DNA from: an uncultured Ilumatobacter sp. | GTDB lineage: Bacteria > Actinomycetota > Acidimicrobiia > Acidimicrobiales > Ilumatobacteraceae | Length of the DNA: 64,000 bases | Reading direction: 5' to 3' | Assembly: GCA_937919625.1 (NCBI GenBank) | Contig: CALFRK010000045.1 | Coordinates: 1-64,000, forward strand | Position numbers and translations under genes: made by a program | The notes under the pieces: model-generated | What the model saw: the letters and a program-made list of their open reading frames with translations, nothing else | The model's database searches: none | Told to the model about the DNA's origin: nothing | In this document: positions 22,481-61,022 of the stretch, piece after piece | Layout: each line of letters starts with the position of its first letter | Numbering within the stretch: position 1 is the stretch's first letter

Positions 22481-23332
22481 CAAGGTTCCGCGACCGAAGT
22501 CCCGGTCGACACCGTCCAACACCCCGGTAAATACGATCGTCAACACCACCCCGTTGAAGATCGCGTGGGCGATCACGGTCGGCCCTAGTCGATGCGTGAG
22601 ATAGGCGGCCGCACCGAACGTCACCCCGACTGCAGAGAGCACCATGGCGAGACCGACATTGCCGCTGCCGCGGACAGGATCGATGTGAGCCACCCCGAAC
22701 AGCACTCCTTGCAGGCTGATCGCAGCGACCGGCCCCATCCGACTCAGGAACCCACGCATCACGAGACCCCGAAATACGATCTCTTCGACGATCGGAGCGG
22801 CGATCACGGCGGCCACCAGCGTGGCGATCAGATACGCCCGATCGGTGTCGAAATCGCCGGCCCCGTCGATATTGCTGCTGAGCGGAATCTCGAAGATCAG
22901 AACCGCCGCCGCAAATACAGACTGGGATAACACGGCCGCCAGCCACGTGAGGGGGCCCCAGCCGAGATCGCTCCACCGAAACTTCCATCCGAGCGAAGCC
23001 AACCGCCCGGCGCCCCACCGGCGGCGAACATAGATTCCCCAGGCCACGGAAGGGCCATACGACAACACCACGGAGATCGCGATGTACACGATCAGCGACC
23101 ATTCGTAGGAGATCAGCGCCTCCAGAATCACCTTGCCGAGCACCAGCGAGACGATCAACACTGCGAGCGCACCGAGCGCCGCCCAGATTGGAAGGCTGGG
23201 GTGCTGCTCGGGCTGCTCGAATCGCGGGTACACCGGCGTCCAAGCGTGACCATCGAAGTAGCGTTGCCCGATACCCTGTGGATCGGGATACCAGCCTGCC
23301 GGCGCGGTGGTGGGTGGTGGGAACTTGGTCAT
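22394..23332 (-). CDS. CPBP intramembrane protease with DUF2510 domain
   Basis: 312 residues. A DUF2510 segment (PAGWYPDPQGIGQRYFDGHAW) opens the protein. Six or more hydrophobic helices follow, including the CPBP motifs EEIVFRGLVMRGFL (catalytic Glu pair), FGVAHIDP and HAIFNGVVL. Such Abi/CAAX-like proteases act within the membrane on unknown substrates. The C-terminal 29 codons lie antisense to panC, which is unusual but not impossible. ATG 23332 is the first ATG. TACGCT at 23374-23369 would give a leader of about 30 bases. Confidence 0.82.
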   Translation of the reverse strand: MTKFPPPTTAPAGWYPDPQGIGQRYFDGHAWTPVYPRFEQPEQHPSLPIWAALGALAVLIVSLVLGKVILEALISYEWSLIVYIAISVVLSYGPSVAWGIYVRRRWGAGRLASLGWKFRWSDLGWGPLTWLAAVLSQSVFAAAVLIFEIPLSSNIDGAGDFDTDRAYLIATLVAAVIAAPIVEEIVFRGLVMRGFLSRMGPVAAISLQGVLFGVAHIDPVRGSGNVGLAMVLSAVGVTFGAAAYLTHRLGPTVIAHAIFNGVVLTIVFTGVLDGVDRDFGRGTLSAVSVVAEHAVIDQPHIAEPAGQQHNRW

Positions 23333-47802: not shown

Positions 47803-48042
47803 ACAATTCTCCACGACAGGCGACACCGTTCGGACGACGTTCGAATCCTGGCCGTAGCTGAACTCGCTAAGCGACGCCTTCAGGACGATACCGATCGCGG
47901 CGAGTTCTTTCTCATCCCACGATTTGATCGGTCAGCTGTGAATCTTGATGGCCGCCTCGACCCGCTTCACCGGTCTGGGATTCTTGCTCACGAGCCGCTC
48001 AGGGGCGACGTCGATCGCCCAGTCGAGATCGGTGATGCAGGT
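47803..48042 (-). pseudogene. Coding-like remnant with in-frame stop, downstream of MDR gene
   Basis: In one minus-strand frame the sequence after the MDR stop reads LDWAIDVAPERLVSKNPRP and on to KIHS, then TGA at 47934-47932, then PIKSWDEKELAAIGIVLKAS. Third-codon GC is high on both sides of the stop, as in real genes here. There is no start codon at the front. It is most simply a truncated, interrupted gene; I do not recognise the family. Confidence 0.35.
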
Positions 48043-49154
48043 CAGATCTCGACCACAATGTTGCCGACGTGCCGCTTGGCCACGAATGCCTGCTGTGCCG
48101 CGACGAGTTCGGCCAGCGGATATGTGGCAGCCAGCACCGGACGCAAGAGGCCCGCCTCGATGTGGCCTACGACACGGGCAAACGTGCCGGGTGGGCACAC
48201 CGTGGCACCTTCGAACCGAAGGTCTCCGTAGATCAGATGCCGAAGGTCGAATTCGACGATCGGCCCTGCGATCGCGCCGGCGGTGACGTAGCTCCCACCT
48301 TGCCGAAGAACCGGGACCAGTTGTTCGAACATCGAACCACCAACGACGTCGACGAGCACATCGATCTGGCCTGTGGGTGACGCTGCTCTGACAGCGGCGC
48401 CCAGGTCAGTGGCCGCACGGTCGACCACTACATCGGCACCGAACCGGCTCAAGGCTGGGCTCTTCGTGTTCGAGGCGATGGCGATGACATGCGCACCCCT
48501 CGCCCGTGCCAGTTGCAGGGCCGCCGTTCCGACCCCACCGGAGGCACCGGTGACGACGACGATGTCGCCAGGGCCGACCCGGCCCTTGGAGAGCATGTTC
48601 TCGGCTGCCACCGACGAACAGGCGAAGGTCGCCAACTCGGCGTCGGTCAGATCGGAGATCACGGGGTGCACGTTCGCGGCCGGGGCGACGCAATACTCGG
48701 CGAATCCACCGTCGAGTTCCGATCCGAAGTATCGGGCTCGCGAGAGATCGTGAGGCGCCTCCCGATCGAGTACCCAGGGATCGATCAGCACACGCCGGCC
48801 GACCAAGTCGGAGCCGACCCCGTCTGGCCCCGCGCCGACGACCACGCCGCACACGTCGGCGCCCTGGATCCGAGGAAAGACAAGACCATCGCTCCAGCCC
48901 CCGCTCGCGACCAATCCGTCTTCGCCCGCAGGCTCGCTTGTGCGCTCGGCCGTCGTTGCTCCGCGGACTTCGCTGGCGTACCAACCGATGCGGGTATTGA
49001 CGTCAGTGTTGTTGAGCCCACAGGCCGACACCCGCACCAACACCTCGCCGGCGGCCGGCTGGGGCACTGCGACGTCGTCGTGATAGCGCAGCTGGTCGTA
49101 GCCGCCGTGTCCCATCAACAAGACAGCTTGCATCGTGGCCGGCAACGTGCTCAT
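48042..49154 (-). CDS. MDR-family zinc-independent oxidoreductase (quinone reductase-like)
   Basis: 370 residues. GroES-like N-terminal domain (VLVRVSACGLNNTDVNTRIG), then the Rossmann domain VVVTGASGGVGTAALQLARA and DVLVDVVGGSMFEQL. The cysteines of the structural zinc site of classical alcohol dehydrogenases are missing, which fits quinone oxidoreductase or enoyl reductase types. NADPH use is likely; the substrate is unknown. ATG 49154 follows the hydroxyacid dehydrogenase stop by 6 bases, so it ends a three-gene operon. Confidence 0.88.
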   Translation of the reverse strand: MSTLPATMQAVLLMGHGGYDQLRYHDDVAVPQPAAGEVLVRVSACGLNNTDVNTRIGWYASEVRGATTAERTSEPAGEDGLVASGGWSDGLVFPRIQGADVCGVVVGAGPDGVGSDLVGRRVLIDPWVLDREAPHDLSRARYFGSELDGGFAEYCVAPAANVHPVISDLTDAELATFACSSVAAENMLSKGRVGPGDIVVVTGASGGVGTAALQLARARGAHVIAIASNTKSPALSRFGADVVVDRAATDLGAAVRAASPTGQIDVLVDVVGGSMFEQLVPVLRQGGSYVTAGAIAGPIVEFDLRHLIYGDLRFEGATVCPPGTFARVVGHIEAGLLRPVLAATYPLAELVAAQQAFVAKRHVGNIVVEI

Positions 49155-49160
49155 CAGGTT

Positions 49161-50129
49161 TCAGGCGGTGACCGGGTTGATCGGGTGACGGCCCGCCAGA
49201 ACCTCGACGACGTTTTGTGCCGCCAATCTGGCCATCGCCGACCGGGTTTCGATCGTCGCCGATCCAAGATGCGGCACCAGCACGACCGTGTCGAGGCCCA
49301 GTAGGCCCGGGTGCACATCGGGCTCGTGCTCGAACACGTCGAGTGCGGCACCCGCGATTTGGCGGTTCAGCAGCGCCTCTGCCAAGGCAGCCTCGTCGAC
49401 GATCGGTCCGCGTGCCGTATTGACCAGGTACGCAGACGACTTCATGCGACCGAGCGCGGCGGCGTCGATCAGATGGTGGGTGATCTCGCTGTACGGGCAG
49501 TTGATCGAGACGACATCGCTGGTCTCGAGCAGCTCGTGCAGGTCGACCTTTTGTGCCCCCAGCCGGGCCTCGGTGTCGGCGTCGATGACCCGACGGTTGT
49601 TGTACACCACGGTCATCCCAAATGCTTTGGCGCGTTGCGCCAGCGCCTCTCCGATTGCGCCCATTCCGATGATGCCGAGCCGTCGGCCTTGCAGGCCGAC
49701 GCCGAGCATCATGAACATCCCCCATTGCCAGGGTGCGCCCGAGCGGATCAGCCGTTCACCCTCGCCGAGGCGGCGAGTGCTCATCAGGATCAGCGCCATC
49801 GCCAGGTCGGCGGTTGCATCGGTGAGCACGCCTGGCGTATTGGTGACGATCACACCGCGTCGTTGGCAGGCAGCGATGTCGATGTTGTTGTAGCCGACCG
49901 CGACGTTGGCGACGATCCGCAGCTTCGGGGCAGCGTCCAAGAACGTGTCGTCGACACGATCCGTCAACAGGGTGACAGCTACATCTGCGTTTGCCAGCTG
50001 TGCATCCCGAATGTCTGCCGGCACCGGTTGAGAACGATCCCATGCCCACACGTCGCCGACTTCCCGAAGCAGCTCGAGGCCTGCGTCGGGGATCTTGCCG
50101 GTCACGACGATCCGGGGTGCAGCGGTCAT
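49161..50129 (-). CDS. D-2-hydroxyacid dehydrogenase (glyoxylate/hydroxypyruvate reductase-like)
   Basis: 322 residues. NAD(P) motif GRRLGIIGMGAIGEALAQRA near residue 150, substrate segment VAVGYNNIDIAACQ, VNTARGPIVDEAAL, catalytic Glu region LDVFEHEPDVHPGLL and His in VLVPHLGSA. It reduces glyoxylate, hydroxypyruvate or a similar 2-oxo acid. ATG 50129 overlaps the aminotransferase stop as ATGA. Together with a transaminase this suggests handling of an amino acid via its 2-oxo acid. Confidence 0.92.
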   Translation of the reverse strand: MTAAPRIVVTGKIPDAGLELLREVGDVWAWDRSQPVPADIRDAQLANADVAVTLLTDRVDDTFLDAAPKLRIVANVAVGYNNIDIAACQRRGVIVTNTPGVLTDATADLAMALILMSTRRLGEGERLIRSGAPWQWGMFMMLGVGLQGRRLGIIGMGAIGEALAQRAKAFGMTVVYNNRRVIDADTEARLGAQKVDLHELLETSDVVSINCPYSEITHHLIDAAALGRMKSSAYLVNTARGPIVDEAALAEALLNRQIAGAALDVFEHEPDVHPGLLGLDTVVLVPHLGSATIETRSAMARLAAQNVVEVLAGRHPINPVTA

Positions 50130-51316
50130 GCCGACTCGATCCAGTTGGCGAGGCGACCGATCCCCTCGGTGATGTCGTCGACGTCGATGCCCGAGTAGGC
50201 GAACCGGATGTAGTGCTGCGTCTCGTCGGGCTGCGCCGAACCGAAGTGATGTCGAGTGCAGAACGAGACGCCGGTGTTGTGCAGCGCGGTCGCTGCGAAG
50301 TCGGTGACCGACTCGAGGCCAAGCCGGGCGACCACCTCGGTAACGTTGGGGAACAGATAGAACGTTGCCTCAGGTGTAGCGCACGTTATGCCAGGTATCG
50401 ACGCCAACCCACCGGCGGCCGCATCACGCCGACGCTTCAGCTCGGCCAACAAGGGCGATGACCCCGAAGGATCGTTGAGCGCAGCGACCCCAGCTGCCTG
50501 CACGAAGTGGGTAGTGCAGCTCTCGTCGTTGGTGTTGATCTTTGCGATCTGTGCGGCGACATGCGCCGGCGCGACTGCACACCCCAACCGCCAGCCGGTC
50601 ATCGCGAACTTCTTCGAGAAGGTGTACAGGATCACGGTTCGGTCTGCCATGCCGGGTAGCGACGCGATCGACGTCGAGGTGCCCGAGTAGCGCATCTCGA
50701 AATAGGCCTCGTCGCTGAGCACGATCAGGTCGTGTTCGATGGCCAAACGTGCGATCTCTGCCATCTCGTCGGGCGAGCTTTCGCAGCCGAGCGGATTCTG
50801 GAGGTTGTTGTAGATCAACAGGCGAGCCTGAGGCGCAAGTTGGCGCAACTGATCGAGGTCGATTCCGAACCCGGTAGGCGTTTCGTGGTAACGGTAGGGC
50901 AGCGCCCTCCCCCCGAAGTAGTCGATCTGGCTCTCATAAATCGGGTAACCAGGGTTGGGGTACAGCACCCCATCGCCTTCGTTCATCATGGCCTGGATGA
51001 ACTTCGTGATCACCGGCTTGCCGCCGGGCTGCACCACGATGTTCGCGCCGGTGAGTTCGAGCCCGCGGTCACCGCCGATGTTGTTCGCCAGCGCCTCCCG
51101 CAACTCTGGGATTCCGGCCGCCGGACAGTACCCGGTGCGACCATCAACAATCGCCCGATTCATGGCGTCGACGATGTTGCCGGGTGTCGGCAGATTGATG
51201 TCACCGAGGTGGAATGGGAACACCCGGTTCCCCTGCGCCGCCCAATCGGCGGCAGCCAACGAAACGGCGAAAGCCGTCTCAGTTCCTAAACGAGCCAAAC
51301 GATCTGCGAGTTTCAC
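50126..51316 (-). CDS. PLP-dependent class I/II aminotransferase
   Basis: 396 residues. Key features are GRTGYCPAAGIPELREAL, IVVQPGGKPVITKFIQAM, YNNLQNPLGCESS, LSDEAYFEM with the PLP-pyridine Asp, the Schiff-base Lys in YTFSKKFAMTGWRLGCAV, and HYIRFAYSGID with the substrate-carboxylate Arg. Fold type I, AspAT-like; the substrate is unknown. GTG 51316 has TAGTCT 6 bases upstream. First gene of the operon with the hydroxyacid dehydrogenase and MDR genes. Confidence 0.92.
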   Translation of the reverse strand: MKLADRLARLGTETAFAVSLAAADWAAQGNRVFPFHLGDINLPTPGNIVDAMNRAIVDGRTGYCPAAGIPELREALANNIGGDRGLELTGANIVVQPGGKPVITKFIQAMMNEGDGVLYPNPGYPIYESQIDYFGGRALPYRYHETPTGFGIDLDQLRQLAPQARLLIYNNLQNPLGCESSPDEMAEIARLAIEHDLIVLSDEAYFEMRYSGTSTSIASLPGMADRTVILYTFSKKFAMTGWRLGCAVAPAHVAAQIAKINTNDESCTTHFVQAAGVAALNDPSGSSPLLAELKRRRDAAAGGLASIPGITCATPEATFYLFPNVTEVVARLGLESVTDFAATALHNTGVSFCTRHHFGSAQPDETQHYIRFAYSGIDVDDITEGIGRLANWIESA

Positions 51317-51322
51317 CTGGCG

Positions 51323-51328
51323 AGACTA
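51323..51328 (-). promoter_or_regulatory. Putative -10 element, leaderless start of aminotransferase operon
   Basis: TAGTCT on the minus strand, 6 bases before GTG 51316. Confidence 0.5.
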
Positions 51329-51358
51329 ACAATTCGTCAAGCAAAAAGCCGCAAGCTG

Positions 51359-51688
51359 CTAACCGGTCGAGGCGATCCTCACCCGACGCAAGACCCGTAC
51401 CTTCGAGGCGGTAACATTGGCCAGCAGCTGAGCCCACGCCTCATCGGCCGTCGAGCCCTCGGCCGTGGCGACGGCGATCTCGCCGTCATACCGTTCGGCT
51501 TCGGCGATCCAGACTGGCTCGACCCGCAACAAGCACCCGTCGAGGCCGCGCACGTGGTTCTCGCGGAACTCGAGCGTGGTCCTCCAACCCAGGCGTTCGA
51601 GATCGCGCCGCTGCAAGGGCTGCAACACCGCGCCGTGGCGCCGGGCCCGCTGACCCGAGTTGGGAAGAGTGGACGACATCTCGTCCAT
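51359..51688 (-). CDS. Hypothetical protein
   Basis: 109 residues from ATG 51688 (a second ATG at 51679). No membrane segment or known motif. The middle reads as a compact alpha/beta protein (LERLGWRTTLEFRENHVRG, GCLLRVEPVWIAEAERYDGE), with a helical EGSTADEAWAQLLANVT segment. The short phrase before the basic C-terminus looks like a real gene by codon use. There is no clear promoter. The function is unknown. Confidence 0.6.
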   Translation of the reverse strand: MDEMSSTLPNSGQRARRHGAVLQPLQRRDLERLGWRTTLEFRENHVRGLDGCLLRVEPVWIAEAERYDGEIAVATAEGSTADEAWAQLLANVTASKVRVLRRVRIASTG

Positions 51689-51798
51689 TGTGAACGAAAT
51701 GCCCTGTGGAACGTCAGCCCCCACAACGTGTGACTTTCCTGGGGAAGAACGGCCCCTGAGCTGTGGGTAAGTCGGCCACCCGCCACTCAGTCCGCGGC

Positions 51799-52242
51799 TC
51801 AGCCCGTGCGCTCGGCCACGAACACAGGGATCACGCGCTCGGTCTTGACCTGGTACTCGGCATAGGTGGGGAACACCGCCACACCGCGATCGAACCACAC
51901 CTGACGCTCGCCACCGGTGACCTCGCGAGTCACATAATCGCGCGGCTCGTGGCCATCCTGAATTGTGATATTCGGATCGGCGATCAGATTGGAGTACCAG
52001 CCCGGATTTGCCGGGCGGCCCGCGTACGACGCCACCAGGGCATAGACACCTTCGTGTTCGACCCGCATCAGGGCTACCTTGCGGACCTTGCCCGAGCTGT
52101 GACCGCGCATCGATACCACGATGACCGGGATCCCAGTGTCACGCAACGTATTGGCGCGCCGGCCACCGGACGCCTCATATTCGGTGATCTGGTCACGCAC
52201 CCAGTCAAGTGTGCTCGGCTCATAGTCCCCATCGATCGGCAT
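51799..52242 (-). CDS. Nitroreductase/DDN-family deazaflavin-dependent protein
   Basis: 147 residues. VVSMRGHSSGKVRKVALMRV, YALVASYAGRPANPGWYSNL and the TREVTGGERQVWFDR segment match the split beta-barrel DDN family of actinobacteria, which bind coenzyme F420 and reduce quinones or nitro compounds. ATG 52242 is preferred over the ATG at 52281 because TACGAT ends 6 bases before it. It is divergent from the ABM gene at 52274, whose -10 is only 7 bases away. Confidence 0.85.
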   Translation of the reverse strand: MPIDGDYEPSTLDWVRDQITEYEASGGRRANTLRDTGIPVIVVSMRGHSSGKVRKVALMRVEHEGVYALVASYAGRPANPGWYSNLIADPNITIQDGHEPRDYVTREVTGGERQVWFDRGVAVFPTYAEYQVKTERVIPVFVAERTG

Positions 52243-52248
52243 CGACGC

Positions 52249-52266
52249 ATCGTATGGCACTACGGT
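52249..52266. promoter_or_regulatory. Closely spaced divergent -10 elements
   Basis: Minus strand TACGAT (52254-52249) lies 6 bases before ATG 52242. Plus strand TACGGT (52261-52266) lies 7 bases before ATG 52274. They are 6 bases apart, so the two promoters should compete. Confidence 0.55.
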
Positions 52267-52273
52267 CGGCACC

Positions 52274-52573
52274 ATGCTCATCGTCGCCGGCGAGATCCGG
52301 GTGCAATCCGGAACTCGCGATCAGTACTTCGAAGCCGTCGCTGCGATGGTCGCAGCGACCGTCGCCGAGGAGGGCTGCCGGGCGTACGCCTTCACGCCCG
52401 ACCCCGGTGACGACGAACTGATCCGGCTGTACGAGCTGTGGGACAGCGAGCAAGCGCTGGCACGCCACATGGCATCGAGCCACATGGCCAAGTGGCGTCA
52501 GCGCAGCAGCTCGCTGCCAGTTATCAGCCGCGATCTCAAGTGCTACACGATCTCAGATGTCCGCCCGCTCTGA
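52274..52573 (+). CDS. Antibiotic biosynthesis monooxygenase (ABM) domain protein
   Basis: 99 residues forming one ABM ferredoxin-like barrel: LIVAGEIRVQSGTRDQYFEA, EEGCRAYAFTPDP, LYELWDSEQALARHMASSHM. Members act as small quinol monooxygenases or as non-enzymatic subunits. The last 17 bases overlap galD, so it belongs to the aromatic-acid operon. It might act on an aromatic or quinone intermediate; that is inference. ATG 52274 has TACGGT 7 bases upstream. Confidence 0.85.
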   Translation: MLIVAGEIRVQSGTRDQYFEAVAAMVAATVAEEGCRAYAFTPDPGDDELIRLYELWDSEQALARHMASSHMAKWRQRSSSLPVISRDLKCYTISDVRPL

Positions 52574-53648
52574 CGGAGTTCGCTGCCTACTGATTCGGGG
52601 AGGCACGTCGAAGGGCGCGTACTTTGTCGCCGACGACCTGCCCGCAGATCCAGTCGACCGCGACGAACTGTTGATGCGCCTGCTGGGCACGCCAGATCCA
52701 CGTCAGATCGATGGTCTGGGTGGAGCCCATCCGCTCACGAGCAAGGTCGCGATCGTTTCCCGTTCTTCGCGATCCGATGTCGATCTCGACTATCTGTTCT
52801 TGCAGATCGGTGTCGAACACGCCACCGTGTCCGACCGCCAGAACTGTGGCAACCTGTTGGCCGGCGTCGGCCAGTTTGCTCTCGAACGCGGACTGATCGC
52901 TGTTTCGGAAGGGCAGTTACATTTTGCCGCGGTACCGATCTACATGGTCAATACCGACAGCATCGCAACCGCCTATTTCCAGATCGTCGATGGCATGCCC
53001 AACTACTCGGGCGGTACCAGAATCGACGGAGTGCCAGGAACTGCGGCCGAGGTACGTCTCGAGTTCGATGACATTGCGGGCGGATCGTGCGGAGCACTGC
53101 TGCCGACCGGCAATGCGGTCGACACGCTCGACGACCTCGAGGTGACATTGATCGACAATGGCATGCCCGTCGTGATCGTACGCGCCAGCGATCTCGGTAA
53201 GTCAGGGTACGAGACCCCTGACGAGCTCGAAACCGACCAGCAACTATGTCAACGGATCGAGTCGATTCGGCGCGCAGCAGGTCCAATGATGAAACTCGGT
53301 GATGTCGCCGACACCACGGTGCCCAAAATCACGCTCGTCTCAGCGCCGATCAACAACGGCACCATCAACACCCGCACGTTCATCCCGCACCGCTGCCACG
53401 AGGCGATCGGCGTGTTCGGCGCTGTCTCGGTTGCCACGGCCGCCTTGCTTCCCAATTCGCCTGCGGCGTCGGTCGCCCGACTCGGCGGGCACCCGTCGCG
53501 GATCGTGTGTGAACACCCGACCGGAACCTTCACGGTTGTGATCGACGCCACCTCACGTTCGGACGGCACGCTCACCGTTCACCATGCCGGCATCATCCGC
53601 ACAGCCCGCAAACTGATGGACGGCATCTGCTTTCCACGCGATACCTGA
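52557..53648 (+). CDS. galD: 4-oxalomesaconate tautomerase (PrpF/GalD family)
   Basis: 363 residues. The PrpF-type N-terminus VRCLLIRGGTSKGAYFVADD, IDGLGGAHPLTSKVAIVS, CGNLLAGVGQFA with the catalytic Cys, PTGNAVDTL, and FIPHRCHEAIGVFGAVSVAT are all present. GalD interconverts the keto and enol forms of 4-oxalomesaconate. The assignment against other PrpF isomerases rests on its place with ligI, ligJ and ligK. The start overlaps the ABM gene by 17 bases, and the stop overlaps ligI by one base. Confidence 0.88.
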   Translation: MSARSDGVRCLLIRGGTSKGAYFVADDLPADPVDRDELLMRLLGTPDPRQIDGLGGAHPLTSKVAIVSRSSRSDVDLDYLFLQIGVEHATVSDRQNCGNLLAGVGQFALERGLIAVSEGQLHFAAVPIYMVNTDSIATAYFQIVDGMPNYSGGTRIDGVPGTAAEVRLEFDDIAGGSCGALLPTGNAVDTLDDLEVTLIDNGMPVVIVRASDLGKSGYETPDELETDQQLCQRIESIRRAAGPMMKLGDVADTTVPKITLVSAPINNGTINTRTFIPHRCHEAIGVFGAVSVATAALLPNSPAASVARLGGHPSRIVCEHPTGTFTVVIDATSRSDGTLTVHHAGIIRTARKLMDGICFPRDT

Positions 53649-54523
53649 TGCTCGAACGCACGATTCCCGCCCCGATCTCGTCGCCCCACCCGCCAACCGC
53701 GTTCAGCCCTCCCCGTGGCGCATGCGATGCGCATTGCCACGTATTCGGCCCGGCGGCCCGTTTCCCGTTCGCCACTGGACGCGCATACACGCCACCCGAC
53801 TCGGGGATCGGTCTGTTCGAACGTTTGCAGAACAGGCTCGGTCTGTCACGGGCGGTGTTCGTACAGGCCAGTTGTCACGGCACCGACAACCTGGCGATGG
53901 TCGACGCGCTCCGGCGCGGACGCGGCCGTTACGCCGGCGTCGCCATGATCGACGAGAGCATCTCGACGTCCGAGATCGCCAAGCTTCATGACGTCGGCGT
54001 ACGTGGCACCCGATTCAACTTCGTCGCCCATTTGGGCGGGGCACCCGACCTTGACGTGTTCTGGCGACTGGTCGACCGTGTACGGCCCTTCGGGTGGCAC
54101 ATCGTGTTGCACTTCGACGCCAAGGATCTTTCCCGCTACACCGAGCTGTTCGATCGGATGCCGTGCCCTTACATCATCGACCATATGGCCCGTGTGCCAG
54201 TCGCCGAAGGCTTGCATCAGGAGCCGTTCCAGCAGCTGCTGGGGCTGATCGCCGACGAGCGTTGCTGGGTGAAGATATCCGGTGCCGAGCGGTTGACCGC
54301 CCACGGCCCTCCCCCATACGACGACGTCGTTCCCTACGCCCGAGCGTTGATCGCGGCAGCACCCGACCGTGTTCTGTGGGGAACCGACTGGCCGCACCCC
54401 AACGTGCGTCACATGCCCGATGAAGGCGACCTGCTCGACCTGCTGACACAGTTTGCCCCAGACGCTGCGATCCGCAATCGGATTCTCGTCAGTAATCCCG
54501 AGACTCTGTACGACTTCAGCTAG
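53648..54523 (+). CDS. ligI: 2-pyrone-4,6-dicarboxylate hydrolase (LigI-like amidohydrolase)
   Basis: 291 residues. ACDAHCHVFGPAARFPF near residue 26 (HxH), RAVFVQASCHGTDN, GVRGTRFNFV, WHIVLHFDAKDL, YIIDHMARVPV, and WGTDWPHPNVRH with the catalytic Asp form the pattern of PDC hydrolase in the amidohydrolase family. It opens the lactone of 2-pyrone-4,6-dicarboxylate to 4-oxalomesaconate. ATG overlaps the galD stop (TGATG). It is the last gene of the ABM-galD-ligI operon. Confidence 0.87.
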   Translation: MLERTIPAPISSPHPPTAFSPPRGACDAHCHVFGPAARFPFATGRAYTPPDSGIGLFERLQNRLGLSRAVFVQASCHGTDNLAMVDALRRGRGRYAGVAMIDESISTSEIAKLHDVGVRGTRFNFVAHLGGAPDLDVFWRLVDRVRPFGWHIVLHFDAKDLSRYTELFDRMPCPYIIDHMARVPVAEGLHQEPFQQLLGLIADERCWVKISGAERLTAHGPPPYDDVVPYARALIAAAPDRVLWGTDWPHPNVRHMPDEGDLLDLLTQFAPDAAIRNRILVSNPETLYDFS

Positions 54524-54807
54524 ACAGTTGGCTGCAAGGGGTCAGTGTCCGGAGGCGATCAGTGGTCGGGCTGGCTCGGGTCGAAGGGTGGTTTCGTTGT
54601 GCTGGTTCCGTGACCGGTCAACGTTGGTGGTGTTGACGCCGAGTCAGGTGGGCTGCTCGCATGGCGCTGTGGCGATGCAACGCGTTGCCCCAAGTTGAAG
54701 AGCAGAGCTGCCTGCGCATCGCATCACATCGAGATGTGCGGGCAGGATCTGCAACTCGACCCACCCAACGGGCATCCTTTACCCACTACCACCATTCGAG
54801 GAGACCC
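54524..54807. other. Intergenic region before SDR gene
   Basis: 284 bases with no supported gene. It contains an operator-like inverted repeat at 54617-54637 and ends with the ribosome site GAGGAG (54798-54803) 4 bases before ATG 54808. I see no clear -10. Confidence 0.5.
54617..54637. promoter_or_regulatory. Operator-like inverted repeat
   Basis: GTCAAC (54617-54622), 9 bases, GTTGAC (54632-54637). Half-site spacing is compatible with a dimeric repressor such as GntR or TetR type. It is unique as far as I could see. Confidence 0.25.
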
Positions 54808-55581
54808 ATGGACACCAACTACGCCTCGTATCCCTCGCTCGTCGATCGAACCGCATTCGTTACCGGCGGCGCCGACGGGATCGGATCTGCCGTTGTTCAG
54901 CACCTGGCACGGCAGGGATGCAAAGTTGCCTTTGTCGACAAGAACGTCGAGTACGCCCACAACACGATCGAGCGCTGTGTTGGCGAGGGTTTCACCCACA
55001 CCCCGATCTTCTATGAGGTCGACCTGCTCGACATCGACGCCCTCCAGAACGCCTGCCAAATGGCGATCGACGAACTCGAAGGGGTCACCGTGCTGGTCAA
55101 CAACGCCGCCAACGACGACCGACACGACTGGCGCGACATGAGTGTCGAGTACTGGAACGAGCGCATGAACGTGAACCTGCGCCACTACTTCTTCGCGATC
55201 CAGTCGTTGGCACCGCAGATGATCGAGGCCAAGCTCGGGTCGATCGTAAATGTCGGATCGAGTAGTTACATGATGCAGGAAGATTTCTTCCCCGGCTATG
55301 CGATTGCCAAGAGTGCCGTCGAGGGCATCACGCGCACGATGGCGCGGACCCTTGGGCAGCACAATGTGCGCGTCAACACCGTGCTTCCAGGATGGGTAGC
55401 TACCGAGCGCCAGATCGACAAATGGTGGTCGCCAGAGGGAGAAGAGGGCACGATGCGCGACCAGGCGTTGAAGAAGCGAATTACCCCCGACGAGTTCGTG
55501 CAGATGGTGCTGTTCCTCGCGGCCGACGACGGCGGCGGCTGCACGGCGCAACAGTTCATGGTAGACGGCGGTCGGTTCTGA
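54808..55581 (+). CDS. Short-chain dehydrogenase/reductase
   Basis: 257 residues. Classical [22 protein letters not shown] (NAD site), [14 protein letters not shown], catalytic Ser in NVGSSSYMM and YxxxK in [10 protein letters not shown], and DGGRF at the end. The closing segment QFMVDGGRF is common in sugar dehydrogenases such as galactose or arabinose 1-dehydrogenase. The substrate is unknown. It lies inside the aromatic cluster and might serve it or be unrelated. GGAG lies 4 bases before ATG 54808. Udp follows with its own -10. Confidence 0.88.
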
Positions 55582-55582
55582 G

Positions 55583-55588
55583 TACGGT
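55583..55588 (+). promoter_or_regulatory. Putative -10 element, leaderless start of udp
   Basis: TACGGT, directly after the SDR stop, followed by 7 bases and GTG 55596. Confidence 0.5.
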
Positions 55589-55595
55589 GGTTGCC

Positions 55596-56354
55596 GTGTC
55601 GGACGTATTTCACCTCGGAATTGCCCGTGAACAACTGTTGCGAGCGACTGTGGCAATCCTTCCAGGCGATCCTGGAAGAGTTCCAAAGATCGCCAGCCTG
55701 CTCGACAATCCTGTCGCCCTGGCATCAAACCGCGAATTCAACAGCTTCCTGGGGTTCTCAGGCGACACCCCGATCGTCGTGTGTTCGACCGGGATCGGCG
55801 GTCCGTCCACATCGATCGCCGTCGAAGAGCTCGCCCAGCTCGGCATTCGCACATTCCTGCGGGTCGGCACGACCGGCGCGATTCAGCCCGACATCGCCGT
55901 GGCAGATCTGATCGTCACCACAGGATCGGTGCGAATGGACGGTGCCAGCCTCCACTTCGCCCCGCTTGAATACCCCGCTGTGGCCGACTTCAACTGCGTG
56001 ACGGCGCTCGTCGAATCGGCCCGTGACCTGGGCTATCAGAGCCATGTCGGCATCACCGTTGCCTCCGACACGTTCTACCCCGGACAAGAACGGTACGACA
56101 CGGTGTCCGGCTATGTGCGCCGGTCGCTCCGGGGCAGCTCCGACGAGTGGGCGGCGCTGCATGTGCTCAACTATGAGATGGAGAGTGCCGCGCTGTTCAC
56201 CATGTGCTCGGCCAACGGATGGCGGGCCGGAATGGTGGCAGGCGTGCTGGTCAATCGCACCCAACACGAGATCCCCGACGCCGCTGTACACGACCGGGTC
56301 GAGGCCAACGCCGTCGCCGTCGTGGTCGAAGCTGCACGGCGGCTCGCCGGCTAG
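55596..56354 (+). CDS. udp: Uridine phosphorylase
   Basis: 252 residues. Nucleoside phosphorylase I family: [51 protein letters not shown], and [20 protein letters not shown] followed by [10 protein letters not shown]. The last two segments resemble E. coli Udp very closely. It cleaves uridine with phosphate to uracil and ribose 1-phosphate. GTG 55596 is chosen for TACGGT 7 bases upstream. It sits in an aromatic catabolic cluster, with no other pyrimidine salvage gene nearby. Confidence 0.92.
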
Positions 56355-56360
56355 TTCGAC

Positions 56361-56612
56361 ATGATCCCCACGATGCTGCTGTTCGGCACGTTCTGTGGGT
56401 TGTTTCGGATCGGCGGTCTTTCACCGCCCACCGTGGCGTCGATCGTTGCGGCGGGTTCGGTCGCATGGGGCGTGCTGGTCGCGGTCATATCGACGTCGTG
56501 GGCCGTGTTCTTCGGGGGCGCTGCCTTGGGTCTGGCGAATGCCTCGGTCGGCGTCGCCGTCGTGTCGGCGATCAGCTGGCCTGTTAGACGACATCGATCA
56601 ACACCAGGGTGA
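56361..56612 (+). CDS. Small membrane protein, hypothetical
   Basis: 83 residues, mostly hydrophobic. Three helices are possible (about 2-18, 24-45, 48-72). It ends with a basic tail (RRHRS). The start is 6 bases after the udp stop, so it is likely co-transcribed. It ends one base from the convergent ligK stop. The function is unknown; a transport helper is one option. Confidence 0.55.
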   Translation: MIPTMLLFGTFCGLFRIGGLSPPTVASIVAAGSVAWGVLVAVISTSWAVFFGGAALGLANASVGVAVVSAISWPVRRHRSTPG

Positions 56613-56613
56613 C

Positions 56614-57300
56614 TCAGAGACGATCGACGTACTCGATGCCCAACTCGGCCAGCTTGGGCCGCAGGCCGTAGAAGTCGAGCCCGAGCTCACCGGCCTCGAG
56701 CAGCTTTCGTGTAGCGGCTTCGTTGTCGAGACGCTGCTGCGACCGCTCGAGTGCCGCCTCGGCCTGCAGCCGCGGAACGACCACGACGCCGTCGTCGTCG
56801 GCACACACGACGTCGCCGGGGTGGACCGTGATGCCACCCAAAACGACGGGAACATTGACCGAGCCCGGCGTGTTCTTCACGGTTCCCTGACACGAGACGT
56901 ATTGGCTCCACACCGGAAAGGCCATCGATCGCAGATCGGCTGTATCGCGCACGCCGGCGTCGATCACCAGCCCGACCACGCCTCGTGCCACCAGCGAGGT
57001 GGCCAACAGGTCACCGAACATGCCGTGTGTCGATGGCGCTGTGTTGACGACGACCAAAATGTCGCCTGCACGGCACACCTCGATCGCGGCGTGGATCATG
57101 ATGTTGTCGCCGGGGTGGCTGAGCACCGTGACCGCCGACCCGGCGACCTTCACGTCGCGCTGGATCGGACGAATGTGGGGGCCCACAAAACCGACGCGCC
57201 CGATCGCCTCGTGCACGGTGGCAGATCCTGCATTGCCCAGCGCCCTGATCGTCGCCGATTCGGCACGGTCGACCTGGCGCACTACTACGTGTCGGTTCAT
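56614..57300 (-). CDS. ligK: 4-carboxy-4-hydroxy-2-oxoadipate aldolase (LigK/GalC, RraA-like fold)
   Basis: 228 residues. AGSATVHEAIGRVGFVGPHI, VAGSAVTVLSHPGDNIMIH, STHGMFGDLLATSLVARGV, LVIDAGVRDTADLR (catalytic Arg-Asp), VVCADDDGVVVVP and the C-terminal helix are typical of the divalent-metal class II pyruvate aldolase. It splits 4-carboxy-4-hydroxy-2-oxoadipate to pyruvate and oxaloacetate. ATG 57300 overlaps the ligJ stop by one base (TGATG). An in-frame GTG at 57303 is also possible. Confidence 0.9.
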   Translation of the reverse strand: MNRHVVVRQVDRAESATIRALGNAGSATVHEAIGRVGFVGPHIRPIQRDVKVAGSAVTVLSHPGDNIMIHAAIEVCRAGDILVVVNTAPSTHGMFGDLLATSLVARGVVGLVIDAGVRDTADLRSMAFPVWSQYVSCQGTVKNTPGSVNVPVVLGGITVHPGDVVCADDDGVVVVPRLQAEAALERSQQRLDNEAATRKLLEAGELGLDFYGLRPKLAELGIEYVDRL

Positions 57301-58319
57301 CACGATGCTCCTGTGGAGATCTGCAGCCGTGGATACACCCGCTGCACGTTGGTTTCGAAGATCTGGGTGCGCTGTAGGTCGGTCAGATCGGCCCTGTCGA
57401 TGTAGCGACGTGTGTCGTCGTAGTACTCGCCGGTGTCGGGGTTGCGGCCCTTCACGGCGCCAACCATCTCAGAGGCAAACAGGATGTTGGCGGTTGGCAC
57501 AACATCGACCAACAGGTCGATTCCCGGCTGGTGATAAACGCAGGTATCAAAAAAGATGTTGACCATCAGTTCGTCGAGCTTCTGCCACGACTGCTCCTCG
57601 GCCATGCCCTTGAACCGGCCCCAGTGGTATGGCACGGCGCCGCCACCATGCGGGATTATCCAGTGCATGTCTGGGAAATCGATAAAGAGACCCGATGTCA
57701 GGGCCTGCATGAAAGCCGTCGTGTCGGCGCCTAGATAGTGCGATCCGGTGGAGTGGAAATGTGGGTTGCACGTGGCACTGACATGAATCATCGCCGGCAC
57801 GTCCAGCTCGCACATCGCCTCGTACAACGGCCAGAAGGCACGATCGTCGAGGGTCGGCCCTGTCCAGTTGCCGCCGGATGGGTCGGGGTTCAGGTTGCAT
57901 CCGACAAACCCCATCTCCTCGACACACCGCCGCAGTTCGGCGACCGAACTTTCGATACCGGCGCCGGGCGACTGCGGTAACTGGCACACCGGGGCGAAGT
58001 TGGTCGGATACAGATCGCAGATCCGTCGGATCAAGTCGTTGCAGTGTTCTGTCCAGAACCTCGACGTGTGCTGATTGCCAATGTGGTGCCCCATCCACGA
58101 CGCCCGCGGCGAGAAAAGCGTCAGATCGATGCCCCGCTGGCGTTGGAGTCGGAGCTGGTTCAGTTCGAGGCTGTCGCGCAGTTCGTCGTCGGAGATTGAG
58201 ATCGTGCCCTTCTCACCCACCTGCGAGGGATCGATTTCGAGCGCCGTACGTTGGGCCTCACGGTACTCACCCAGCTGTGGTGGCGCCGTGGTGTAGTGAC
58301 CGTGACAGTCGATGATCAA
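57300..58319 (-). CDS. ligJ: 4-oxalomesaconate hydratase (LigJ)
   Basis: 339 residues. The match to LigJ is extensive: IIDCHGHYTTAPP at the start, DLTLFSPRASWMGHHIGN, LPQSPGAG, NLNPDPSGGNWTGP, IPHGGGAVPYHWGRFKG, FFDTCVYHQPGIDLL and LFASEMVGAVKGRNPDTGEY. It hydrates 4-oxalomesaconate to 4-carboxy-4-hydroxy-2-oxoadipate. The start codon is TTG at 58319, overlapping as TTGA the stop of a 19-codon ORF that has a strong ribosome site. It is coupled to ligK downstream. Confidence 0.93.
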   Translation of the reverse strand: MIIDCHGHYTTAPPQLGEYREAQRTALEIDPSQVGEKGTISISDDELRDSLELNQLRLQRQRGIDLTLFSPRASWMGHHIGNQHTSRFWTEHCNDLIRRICDLYPTNFAPVCQLPQSPGAGIESSVAELRRCVEEMGFVGCNLNPDPSGGNWTGPTLDDRAFWPLYEAMCELDVPAMIHVSATCNPHFHSTGSHYLGADTTAFMQALTSGLFIDFPDMHWIIPHGGGAVPYHWGRFKGMAEEQSWQKLDELMVNIFFDTCVYHQPGIDLLVDVVPTANILFASEMVGAVKGRNPDTGEYYDDTRRYIDRADLTDLQRTQIFETNVQRVYPRLQISTGAS

Positions 58320-58375
58320 GGGCTGACCCGGCGGGCGTCGAGCACGCGCCCGTGGTCAGCGGTGATTTGGATCAT
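58316..58375 (-). CDS. Putative 19-residue leader ORF of ligJ-ligK operon
   Basis: ATG 58375, preceded by a GGAGG Shine-Dalgarno about 8 bases upstream, opens a 19-codon frame (MIQITADHGRVLDARRVSP) whose TGA overlaps the ligJ TTG start (TTGA). ligJ itself has no ribosome site, so its translation probably depends on this ORF. No homologue is known to me. It may be a coupling ORF or a regulatory leader peptide. Confidence 0.5.
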   Translation of the reverse strand: MIQITADHGRVLDARRVSP

Positions 58376-58392
58376 TGCACTCCCTCCCGACA

Positions 58393-58407
58393 CTGGTTCC
58401 GAGCCAG
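58393..58407. promoter_or_regulatory. Operator-like palindrome between ligJ and pobA
   Basis: CTGGTTCCGAGCCAG is a 15-bp palindrome with one mismatched pair, 22 bases upstream of the pobA start, covering its -35 region. The hexamer CATACT (58417-58422) lies 6 bases before ATG 58429. It is a good site for a regulator of the divergent operons. Confidence 0.4.
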
Positions 58408-58428
58408 ACAGCTTGTCATACTGGATCG

Positions 58429-59604
58429 ATGCTGACGCAGGTTGCGATCGTGGGTGCCGGCCCAGCCGGCTCGCTGTTGGCCCTGCTACTCCACAATGCG
58501 GGCATCGAAAGTATCGTCGTCGAGCGTCAGACACGGCAACACGTATTGTCACGCGTCCGTGCCGGCGTGCTCGAATGGGGGGCCGTCGAGGTGTTTCGGC
58601 GAGCCGGTGTGGGCGCTCGGCTCGATGCCGAAGGACACGTACACAGCGGCACCGGCATTGCCTTCGGCGGCGAGCACGTGTTCTTCGTTGATATCGAGCG
58701 TCACGCCAACTCTCGGTTCATGGCATACGGGCAGACGATGCTCCAAGAGGACCTCTACCTCGCGATCGACCAGGCCAACGTTCAGATCGAGTTCGAGGTC
58801 GATCACGTTGCGATCCACGACATCACCACGGCAGCACCATCGGTCGCGTTCACACAACATGGCGAGTCGAAGCGAATCGACTGCCAGTTCGTCGTCGGAT
58901 GCGACGGCTTTCATGGCCCCGCCAAATCCGCAATGCCCGCAGGCGTACTGCGCACCTACGAGAAGACTTACCCCTTCGGCTGGCTGGGCATCTTGTCGGA
59001 AACCCCGCCGCTCGAACAGTTGGTGTATTGCAACAGCGAACGTGGCTTTGCGTTGGCGTCGCAGCGCAATCCGATGCTCAGCCGGTACTACGTGCAGTGC
59101 CCGCTCGAAGATTCCGTCGACGACTGGAGCGACGATCGGTTCTGGCACGAGTTGGTCCTGCGGTTCCCCGACCGGATCGCCAAACAGATCATCACCGGCC
59201 CATCGATCGATAAGTCGATCGCGCCGCTGCGCAGCTTTGTCGCCGAGCCAATGCGGTTCGGCACCTTGTTTCTGGCCGGCGACGCCGCTCACATCGTGCC
59301 GCCGACCGGCGCCAAAGGGCTCAATCTTGCTGTGTCCGACGTTCACTACCTGTCGAGGGCACTGATCCAGCACTACCACGACCGCCATGACCACTACCTC
59401 GACCGCTACTCGGAGATGGCCCTGCGGCGTGTCTGGGGATCGGTCAGGTTCTCGTGGTGGATGACATCGCTCCTACACCGCTTTCCCGACCACACCGAGA
59501 TCGACCAGCGTCTGCAGGAGGCCGAACTGGCGTACCTGCAATCATCCGACAGCGCCCAGGCGGCGATGTGCGAGCAATACGCCGGCCTACCGTTCGAGGA
59601 TTGA
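58429..59604 (+). CDS. pobA: 4-hydroxybenzoate 3-monooxygenase
   Basis: 391 residues, the usual PobA length. FAD motif VAIVGAGPAGSLLALLL at residues 5-21, HVLSRVRAGVLEWGAVEVFR, FVVGCDGFHGPAK (DG motif), and GDAAHIVPPTGAKGLNLAVSD near residue 285 (GD motif) are diagnostic. It hydroxylates 4-hydroxybenzoate to protocatechuate with NAD(P)H and O2. It is divergent from ligJ. The upstream hexamer is CATACT, 6 bases before ATG. Confidence 0.95.
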   Translation: MLTQVAIVGAGPAGSLLALLLHNAGIESIVVERQTRQHVLSRVRAGVLEWGAVEVFRRAGVGARLDAEGHVHSGTGIAFGGEHVFFVDIERHANSRFMAYGQTMLQEDLYLAIDQANVQIEFEVDHVAIHDITTAAPSVAFTQHGESKRIDCQFVVGCDGFHGPAKSAMPAGVLRTYEKTYPFGWLGILSETPPLEQLVYCNSERGFALASQRNPMLSRYYVQCPLEDSVDDWSDDRFWHELVLRFPDRIAKQIITGPSIDKSIAPLRSFVAEPMRFGTLFLAGDAAHIVPPTGAKGLNLAVSDVHYLSRALIQHYHDRHDHYLDRYSEMALRRVWGSVRFSWWMTSLLHRFPDHTEIDQRLQEAELAYLQSSDSAQAAMCEQYAGLPFED

Positions 59605-59906
59605 ACAACCCGTTCTCACGATCAACCCGGGCATGCGGCAGGGCGCCCGTTGAACGCGGAAACGACCCCGACGATCTACAACTGATATACACATCGAAGT
59701 TTCGCGAACTCGAACCCGTCAGCGAGCGGCGCTCGCGGATTGACAAGGCGTCACGATCTTCCGCTCGAGCAGCTGTGTAAGAGTCCACAGTGCGGCTTCG
59801 CTTCGACTATCGATGGCAACGTGACGACCCAGCAGGAACAGTGGGCCAAGCTTCGACACGTCGTGGTCATCGCCGACGACGTTTGGCGCTGGCCGACGTC
59901 GCCCGC
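59605..59906. other. Intergenic region between pobA and DUF3048 gene
   Basis: 302 bases between two converging genes. No supported gene. A minus-strand frame from GTG 59859 to 59719 (46 codons, LGRHVAIDSRSEAALWTLTQ) has moderate coding-like base use but no promoter, ribosome site or recognisable family. I see no strong hairpin. Confidence 0.5.
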
Positions 59907-61022
59907 TCACTCGCTCCAGTCGAGGACACCCTCGCGATTGCGGGGGATCTCGACCCAGGTACGCCCAGGTTGAAGGCCGAGTTGATTGAGATCTTCGACG
60001 TTGTCGAAAAGGCTGAAAACATCGGTAGGCGCGAACCGCAGCCAGATGCCCGTCCTGACAGTGCCGCCGGTGAAGATGAACACCGGATTCGAACCGAGCA
60101 CCTGCGCATCGGGGTTGCCGTCGAACGTGTTGATTCCGTAGTCGGCCATCATCACGACGACATTGCGAGTCCATACTTGCTCGACATCGGCGCTGGTTTC
60201 GGTGTTGTGTGCACTTCCATTCTGCGAGCGGTAGTACCCGTTGGTGTCGGCGTCGTACCGCCATCGTGAGGTGGTGAGGTCGAGCTGGATCGTGATGTCG
60301 GTCGCCGGTGAACCAGTGAGGGCCTCGCCTTCGCGGAGATAAGCGAACAACTGCGGCGGCCCCTGTGCACCGTCCGGGGTATGGCCCCACAAAACTTCGG
60401 TGCTGGAGTACAGGTCGTTGGGGCCATTACGACTGGAACGCCGGTAGTAGCCGCTGGTGCGCTGAAAGCTGAGGTCGATCAGGTCGGAAGCCTCGATCGC
60501 CCGCGTCACGGCCGGGTTGCCGCCGCTCCAGGCAAACAGCGGCCGGTTCAGCGACAGCATCAGATTGATGTCCTGCGCGCGACCCGACCGAATCGGGCCA
60601 ACAGGATCGCTGCCTTGCGAGTGAAACACGGCAGCCAACCGTGTTGCGTTGTCGTTGATGACTTCGTGAAACACGATGTCGGCACTGTTCAAACCGGCCT
60701 GCGGCAAGACGCTCGACGGAAAGTTCGACATCTTGACAACCAGCGCCGGACGGTCGGGAATCGCCGACTCGTCCTCGACCGGGTCGCCCGTGAGAGGCAT
60801 CCTGGTGACGTCGGGGATTGTCGTCGGAATCACCACAACGCTGGTGGTTGTCGTGCTGCTGGTGGTGGTGGTCGTCGCCGGCACGGTGGTGGTGGCTGCT
60901 GCGGCGCCGATCGTCGTGCTCACAGCGGTGGTGCCGGCGCCGGCGTCGTCACCTCCGGAGCAGGCGGCGACCAGCATTGCGGCTGAGACGAGCAGGCTGG
61001 TCGTCCATGTAGTTTGATTCAC
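59907..61022 (-). CDS. DUF3048 (YerB-like) lipoprotein
   Basis: 371 residues. Signal peptide with lipobox LVAAC near residue 20, then a Thr-rich linker to about residue 75, then the DUF3048 domain: RPALVVKMSNFPSSVLPQAGL, ADIVFHEVINDNATRLAAVFH, PVGPIRSGRAQDI, and the VVVMMADYGIN segment. It is lipid-anchored outside the membrane and of unknown function. GTG 61022 overlaps the htpX stop as GTGA, so it is the last gene of a lemA-htpX operon. Confidence 0.88.
   Translation of the reverse strand: MNQTTWTTSLLVSAAMLVAACSGGDDAGAGTTAVSTTIGAAAATTTVPATTTTTSSTTTTSVVVIPTTIPDVTRMPLTGDPVEDESAIPDRPALVVKMSNFPSSVLPQAGLNSADIVFHEVINDNATRLAAVFHSQGSDPVGPIRSGRAQDINLMLSLNRPLFAWSGGNPAVTRAIEASDLIDLSFQRTSGYYRRSSRNGPNDLYSSTEVLWGHTPDGAQGPPQLFAYLREGEALTGSPATDITIQLDLTTSRWRYDADTNGYYRSQNGSAHNTETSADVEQVWTRNVVVMMADYGINTFDGNPDAQVLGSNPVFIFTGGTVRTGIWLRFAPTDVFSLFDNVEDLNQLGLQPGRTWVEIPRNREGVLDWSE

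Follow-up and report, generated by a model that had tools for sequence, protein, structure and literature searches.

The protocatechuate 4,5-cleavage genes of an uncultured Ilumatobacter sp. are split between two contigs

Introduction

Between positions 52274 and 59604 of the DNA analysed here (the window, a stretch of 64,000 nucleotides from contig C45 of an uncultured Ilumatobacter sp.), a gene cluster encodes both ends of an aromatic-acid pathway but not its middle, which raises the question of how the ring is opened and the resulting semialdehyde oxidized. A sequence-only reading of the window had proposed either that genes for the missing steps lie elsewhere or that an unrecognised enzyme, an ABM or SDR protein, takes part. 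According to a passage of PMC8431788, the 4,5-cleavage pathway is nearly confined to Proteobacteria and actinobacterial cases are rare. We searched the entire genome, a draft of 185 contigs with an estimated contamination of 3.05%, and compared it with 60 relatives (61 genomes including its own). Judged by LigI, the closest named relatives of the pathway-bearing genomes are Acidimicrobiia.

Pathway genes in the window

Profile and structure matches bore out all five enzymes that had been named from the sequence. The 4-hydroxybenzoate 3-monooxygenase PobA (58429-59604, + strand) scored 581.5 bits against TIGR02360, above the equivalog cut-off of 538.7, matched structure 1d7l with an E-value of 8.2e-138 and shows no notable difference from the known enzyme. 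The first-start rule gives 58375-59604 for this gene, and 58429 is probably the true start. The alignment with 1d7l showed that the Ser, Arg and Tyr residues of the substrate site are retained, which we take to be positions 212, 214, 201 and 385 of the Pseudomonas enzyme.

The 4-oxalomesaconate tautomerase (GalD/LigU; 52557-53648, + strand) reached 484.6 bits with NF033377 (cut-off 440) and matched the oxalomesaconate isomerase structure 6p3j (E 5.3e-115). It is followed by the 2-pyrone-4,6-dicarboxylate hydrolase LigI (53648-54523, + strand), which matched the LigI structure 4d8l (E 1.8e-70) and retains both the DAHCHVFGP and the WGTDWPHPN block; among the NCBIfam models it reached no equivalog cut-off, the top model being 4-sulfomuconolactone hydrolase (268.5 bits, cut-off 500). 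On the minus strand lie the 4-carboxy-4-hydroxy-2-oxoadipate aldolase LigK (56614-57303; NF006731, 329.5 bits, cut-off 179; 3noj, E 9.8e-73), which at 292 bits fell 12.5 short of the TIGR02798 cut-off of 304.5, and the 4-oxalomesaconate hydratase LigJ (57300-58319), which matched 6dxq (E 5.5e-136) and Amidohydro_2 (163 bits) and had no NCBIfam match at E 0.001. The uridine phosphorylase gene at 55590-56354 (+ strand; NF008383, 418 bits, cut-off 262) has no relation to the aromatic pathway.

Genes for the middle steps

The genome-wide search returned one match for LigA, two for the LigB family and one for LigC (taken at E up to 1e-40), all of them on contigs other than C45, in agreement with the reported absence of a 4,5-dioxygenase and a semialdehyde dehydrogenase from the window. 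Contig C113 of this genome carries a complete ligABC set, and the steps that had been suggested to lie elsewhere do so. The LigA subunit of protocatechuate 4,5-dioxygenase, whose gene ends at position 21852 of C113, scored 211.9 bits with TIGR02792 (cut-off 108.6) and 235.9 with NF009917 (cut-off 173) and matched chain A of 1b4u (E 9.2e-43). The LigB subunit (C113, 21852-22700) scored 545.3 bits with NF009903, the class III extradiol dioxygenase subunit beta (cut-off 317), and matched chain B of 1b4u (E 7e-120); the residues read from this alignment, presumably numbered H12, H61 and E242, are retained.

The LigC-type CHMS dehydrogenase (C113, 15899-16849) reached no NCBIfam model cut-off, scored 301.8 bits with PF19858 and has PmdC (9azo, E 5.3e-162) as its nearest solved relative. 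From residue 166 it carries the entire motif RSWTDHLLWHHxxHxxDxF, including HHxxH; according to a passage of PMC11489326, this stretch binds the substrate and contains the catalytic histidines.

By gene content the enzyme set is thus complete and split across two contigs. We are highly confident that these genes encode the standard protocatechuate 4,5-cleavage pathway via 2-pyrone-4,6-dicarboxylate (PDC), the catalytic activity of each enzyme being predicted from family membership and retained residues. PobA would convert 4-hydroxybenzoate to protocatechuate, the C113-encoded LigAB would open its ring, the LigC encoded on the same contig would oxidize the semialdehyde to 2-pyrone-4,6-dicarboxylate, and LigI, the tautomerase, LigJ and LigK of the window would lead from there to pyruvate and oxaloacetate. 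Because the genes for the middle are on C113, the gap in the window needs no invented enzyme; in gene content this is an ordinary split pathway, and the puzzle is closed.

Distribution in related genomes

LigB, LigC, LigJ, the tautomerase and a close LigI occur in the identical nine of the 61 genomes, with identities of at least 62% for the tautomerase and at least 69% for LigI; every genome with a close LigI (9/9) also carries LigB and LigC. The gene order of the pathway is fluid and varies between genomes. All eight pathway genes lie inside one 20 kb stretch in two of the nine (G006 and G016), and in the other seven the mapped genes occupy two or more places, separated by 1.8 Mb between pathway blocks in one single-contig genome. 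The single-contig genome G009 has all eight pathway genes.

Alternative explanations

The gallate pathway uses the same tautomerase, LigJ and LigK, and the window genes could serve another input such as gallate, which would yield 4-oxalomesaconate directly and leave LigI unused for protocatechuate. We consider this improbable, because the product of PobA is protocatechuate rather than gallate, the substrate of LigI is PDC, and LigAB is a distinct dioxygenase made of two subunits. Against the gallate dioxygenase model NF009904 LigB scored 296.6 bits and LigA 44.3, at a cut-off of 412 that a separate LigB can hardly reach because the model describes a fused protein of 426 residues. LigAB may accept gallate as well. 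The second LigB-family protein, encoded on contig C27, matched a single model, 4,5-DOPA dioxygenase, at 142.1 bits (cut-off 233), which speaks against both a gallate dioxygenase and, probably, any membership in the pathway.

Protocatechuate 3,4-cleavage (the beta-ketoadipate route) was rejected as well, since the intradiol dioxygenase family PF00775 had no match in the genome in a search that was positive in 4 of 14 named genomes as a control. For the intradiol and LigAB-type dioxygenases that our searches covered, as distinct from type I extradiol (glyoxalase-fold) enzymes, this agrees with the earlier statement that no other type of ring-cleavage enzyme is seen in the window.

Because the assembly is a draft with some estimated contamination, C113 could in principle be of foreign origin, in which case it would be a binning error and the pathway would truly lack its middle here. 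The G+C content of C113 (0.639) and the window (0.637) is nearly the same, and the tetranucleotide usage of the two correlates with r of 0.81-0.88, which at least equals the value between the halves of the window (0.81). Base composition is alike in related genomes, and the stretches of pathway-bearing relatives from the same family gave r of 0.57-0.80, so that the test lends no support to contamination but is blind to a closely related contaminant. The constant company of a close LigI with LigB and LigC and the full gene set of single-contig G009 also argue against a binning error, which we regard as very improbable.

The ABM-domain protein (antibiotic biosynthesis monooxygenase fold, approximately 99 aa; 52274-52573, + strand; PF03992, 64.3 bits) is encoded by an ORF that overlaps the start of the tautomerase gene and whose first base is the start that the sequence-only reading gave for the cluster. 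The SDR-family dehydrogenase (54661-55581, + strand) had D-xylose 1-dehydrogenase (NF053674) as its top model, at 273.4 bits and below the cut-off of 400. Both genes are situated among the lig genes of the window, and in G002 an ABM relative (66% identity) likewise lies upstream of galD and a close SDR relative (79% identity) approximately 5 kb past ligI. In the stretches around lig genes that we examined, an ABM gene adjoins the cluster in two of the nine pathway genomes and in none of the other seven, and the close SDR relative is found in G002 only. That one of these two proteins performs ring cleavage or semialdehyde oxidation is hardly credible: the canonical LigAB and LigC leave no step unfilled, which rules out the need for an unrecognised enzyme, the SDR resembles a sugar dehydrogenase, and we know of no ABM or SDR protein that acts as a ring-cleavage enzyme. 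The ABM protein is probably not a pathway enzyme, and the SDR is probably unconnected with the pathway.

Comparison with known systems

The enzymes are the same as in the lig systems of Sphingobium SYK-6 and Novosphingobium (LigAB, LigC, LigI, LigU, LigJ and LigK), whose several transcription units come with a LysR-type LigR; the distribution of the genes over more than one transcription unit, described in passages of PMC12710314 and PMC8431788, is likewise shared. In Novosphingobium two lig units flank ligR on either side (a passage of PMC12710314), whereas the window's genome has its two sets on separate contigs. The enzyme steps also match those of Comamonas pmd, of Arthrobacter pcm and of Pseudarthrobacter pca, which are described as single transcription units, in contrast to the split set here. 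Pseudarthrobacter, a fellow actinobacterium (a passage of PMC8431788), has a divergent LysR-type gene and a one-subunit dioxygenase, whereas ligA and ligB are separate genes here.

A literature search, judged by the titles of the best matches, found no report of the pathway in Acidimicrobiia. The marker genes in nine of 61 genomes of this Acidimicrobiia-related group are a modest extension of its range. Because gene order shifts between them, these genomes form a small natural set in which to study how a pathway holds together as its genes disperse.

Regulation

A GntR/FCD regulator and the palindrome ATTGTNNACAAT at lig promoters are common to seven of the nine pathway genomes.

This candidate regulator differs from the LysR-type LigR, and the literature search returned no title naming protocatechuate for GntR/FCD control of such genes. 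In the window's genome neither the relatives' regulator nor any match to the strict palindrome was found, so that its two gene sets may or may not be co-induced. Tentatively, a GntR/FCD regulator that putatively binds ATTGTNNACAAT at promoters may link the scattered genes in the Acidimicrobiia group, and the window's species and G002 may have lost regulator and sites and kept the enzymes, so that their regulon would have been rewired to other control; we rate this reading as possible, though below an even chance. A common 14-mer (at most three mismatches) among four of the genome's own promoter regions extended to 1 other region, which is no better than the 1 or 2 reached in 20 shuffles, so that this search revealed no shared promoter element. 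The looser site.TTGTNNACAA. was absent from the lig promoters of the two own stretches checked (window 48000-60000 and L005 2500-12000) and from L005 2500-12000 altogether; its single occurrence in window 48000-60000 is at position 54931, within the SDR ORF.

Protocatechuate 4,5-cleavage genes in the window and on contig C113

The cluster at 52274-59604 had been read from sequence alone as containing pobA, ligI, galD, ligJ and ligK, and this gene set was borne out by family matches and by comparison of the five enzymes with solved structures. The top structures agreed with the assignment in 5/5 cases: 1d7l for the 4-hydroxybenzoate 3-monooxygenase PobA, 4d8l for the 2-pyrone-4,6-dicarboxylate hydrolase LigI, 6p3j for the 4-oxalomesaconate (OMA) tautomerase, 6dxq for the OMA hydratase LigJ, and 3noj for the 4-carboxy-4-hydroxy-2-oxoadipate aldolase LigK. 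Genes for an ABM-domain protein, an SDR and a uridine phosphorylase lie among them. ligJ and ligK share 4 bases and point away from pobA, and the tautomerase gene and ligI touch as well.

The sequence-only reading had also proposed that the missing dioxygenase and semialdehyde dehydrogenase steps were encoded elsewhere, and it had named a complete ligABC set elsewhere in the genome, co-induced with this cluster, as the finding that would make this an ordinary split pathway. By gene content, we found a complete ligABC set on contig C113 of the same genome (G000), a draft of 4.10 Mb in 185 contigs with 98.7% completeness and 3.05% contamination, with the window on contig C45. The LigA family search of this genome returned one protein, on C113, and the LigB search returned two, on C113 and C27. 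On C113, ligB (21852-22700) adjoins ligA. LigA scores above the NCBIfam thresholds for the alpha subunit of protocatechuate 4,5-dioxygenase, and LigB above the one for the beta subunit of class III extradiol dioxygenase. Among solved structures, LigA and LigB are closest to the two chains of the protocatechuate 4,5-dioxygenase 1b4u. The dehydrogenase LigC (C113:15899-16849) has as its top solved relative the CHMS dehydrogenase PmdC (9azo, E 5.3e-162) and retains intact the motif RSWTDHLLWHHxxHxxDxF, which is described in PMC11489326. The C27 protein matched a single model, 4,5-DOPA-dioxygenase, with a score under the cut-off, and probably lies outside this pathway. No intradiol dioxygenase was found in G000.

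By gene content, G000 has every step of the predicted pathway that leads from 4-hydroxybenzoate to pyruvate and oxaloacetate. Because ligA, ligB and ligC lie at least 15.9 kb from either end of C113 (70,695 bases), the split does not represent one operon cut at ligABC by an assembly edge. ligC is itself separated from ligAB by Rrf2-type genes and genes that we named by eye as sulfate-assimilation-type.

C113 groups with the window by composition. Its G+C content is 0.639 compared with 0.637 for the window, and tetranucleotide usage in two pieces of C113 correlates with that in either half of the window at 0.81-0.88, compared with 0.81 between the window halves, 0.41-0.71 for four proteobacterial lig contigs against the C113 and window pieces, and 0.41-0.54 for G052, one of the relatives carrying the pathway. 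Stretches of five same-family pathway-bearing relatives reach 0.57-0.80, so that C113 could in principle, though improbably, stem from contamination by a closely related genome, which composition alone would not reveal.

The sequence-only reading had alternatively suggested that the ABM or SDR protein takes part, a proposal for which we found no support, canonical ligABC being on C113. Within the fetched stretches, an ABM gene occurs 5′ of the tautomerase gene only in G000 and the relative G002, and a close relative of the SDR (79%) only in G002, approximately 5 kb past ligI; neither behaves as a pathway member. The window ABM gene (52274-52573) overlaps the start of a divergent F420H2-dependent quinone reductase gene (51799-52281, minus strand) at one end and the tautomerase gene at the other, and G002 has the same layout.

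Distribution and gene order in relatives

Among 61 genomes (G000 and 60 relatives), LigB, LigC, LigJ, the tautomerase and LigI (at least 69% identity) each occur in 9, always the same set: G000, G002, G004, G005, G006, G008, G009, G016 and G052. At the common E-value cut-off LigI reached 11 genomes, the two extra ones having only 35-36% identical proteins. PobA is present in 9/9 pathway genomes, the scope of that search, and LigK and LigA were mapped in 6/9 and 8/9, respectively, in the fetched stretches, the window and C113. The matches were in two pieces for LigB in G004 and G005 and for LigC in G005; the G004 ligB pieces (C32:6718-7562) lie in different frames, reflecting a draft frameshift or a broken gene. 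A second LigB-family protein (42-46% identity) occurs in G008 and G016, and a second tautomerase-like protein (38-40%) in G000 and G008, that of G000 (C171:22384-23469) being 38% identical to the window tautomerase. Among the matches listed, the closest named relatives of LigI were MAGs labelled Acidimicrobiia, Acidimicrobiales, Acidimicrobiaceae, Ilumatobacter and, once, actinobacterium, which makes the source of G000 most likely an actinobacterium of the Acidimicrobiia.

G006 and G016 have all eight genes inside a single 20 kb stretch. In G009, a single contig, pobA, ligJ, ligK, ligA, ligB and ligC are grouped and the tautomerase gene and ligI lie 1.8 Mb off. In G004 and G008, ligABC is on a separate contig, the same division as in G000. 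The mapped genes are spread over four contigs in G002 (galD-ligI, pobA with ligJ, ligAB, and ligC) and in G052, and over at least four in G005, where contig ends truncate ligB and ligC; most of the nine are drafts, in which separate contigs do not prove distance. In three of ten named actinobacterial MAG loci (L047, L053, L057), ligA, ligB and ligC lie close to ligI and the tautomerase gene. Splitting is therefore frequent in this group and signals no missing or replaced step.

G000 has the enzyme set known from the lig, pmd and pcm systems, for which PMC8431788 and PMC12710314 describe several transcription units (Sphingobium type) or a single one (Comamonas type). The pathway type is already known; for this lineage, a literature search judged by the listed titles found no description of it.

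A candidate lig regulon

In G004, G006, G008, G009 and G016, the interval between ligJ and pobA contains the palindrome GATTGTNNACAATC (two copies in G004), and a further copy lies 5′ of the tautomerase gene of G004, G005 and G008. This strict form is present in 6/9 pathway genomes versus 2/52 others (Fisher p 3.8e-5, a value that overstates the association, since these are related genomes and the pattern was derived from these same promoters); its reversed control pattern occurs in 1/61. The six pathway genomes with the strict form (G004, G005, G006, G008, G009, G016) have 14 sites in all, nine of them being those listed above. Two more are in G005: C160:2935 in the ligJ-pobA interval, and C227:4019 approximately 415 bases 5′ of ligB, roughly at the inferred ligA start. 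Three of the 14 (in G005 C93, G008 C11:21217 and G016 C67:14545) are away from any mapped lig gene start. The looser form ATTGTNNACAAT adds sites before ligA (G008), before pobA (G052) and between ligC and a regulator gene (G052). G000 and G002 have no strict site, and no looser one at the lig promoters checked; G000 yielded no further element common to its promoters.

That candidate regulator is a GntR/FCD protein (PF00392, PF07729; G004 copy L135:5574-6206). Proteins at least 57% identical to the G004 copy occur in 7/9 pathway genomes (G004, G005, G006, G008, G009, G016, G052) and in 0/52 others, G014 having a 30% identical protein. The gene lies beside lig genes in 5/7, between ligK and ligI (G004, G006, G016) or beside ligC (G008, G052), and at another location in G005 and G009. 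None of the 21/21 candidates scored in G000 passed E 1e-20, and none was found among the 50/57 scored in G002, where absence is slightly less firm. Regulator and ATTGTNNACAAT track the pathway in 7/9 genomes, the exceptions being G000 and G002, and point indirectly to shared control of the lig genes in the relatives through a putative palindromic site. Among the ten named actinobacterial MAG loci, the strict palindrome occurs in one (L046) and the regulator, within the fetched stretch, in two (L051, L053), which argues against a general rule; one of 70 other loci, the proteobacterial L055, has the strict palindrome.

A major-facilitator transporter gene lies directly 5′ of ligA in G008 (L131:4891-7876) and G016 (L126:15248-16498), preceded in G008 by a thiamine-pyrophosphate enzyme gene. 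The strict sites G008:C11:21217 and G016:C67:14545 are several kb upstream. The transporter may serve for uptake, and the enzyme for a peripheral step, within this candidate regulon.
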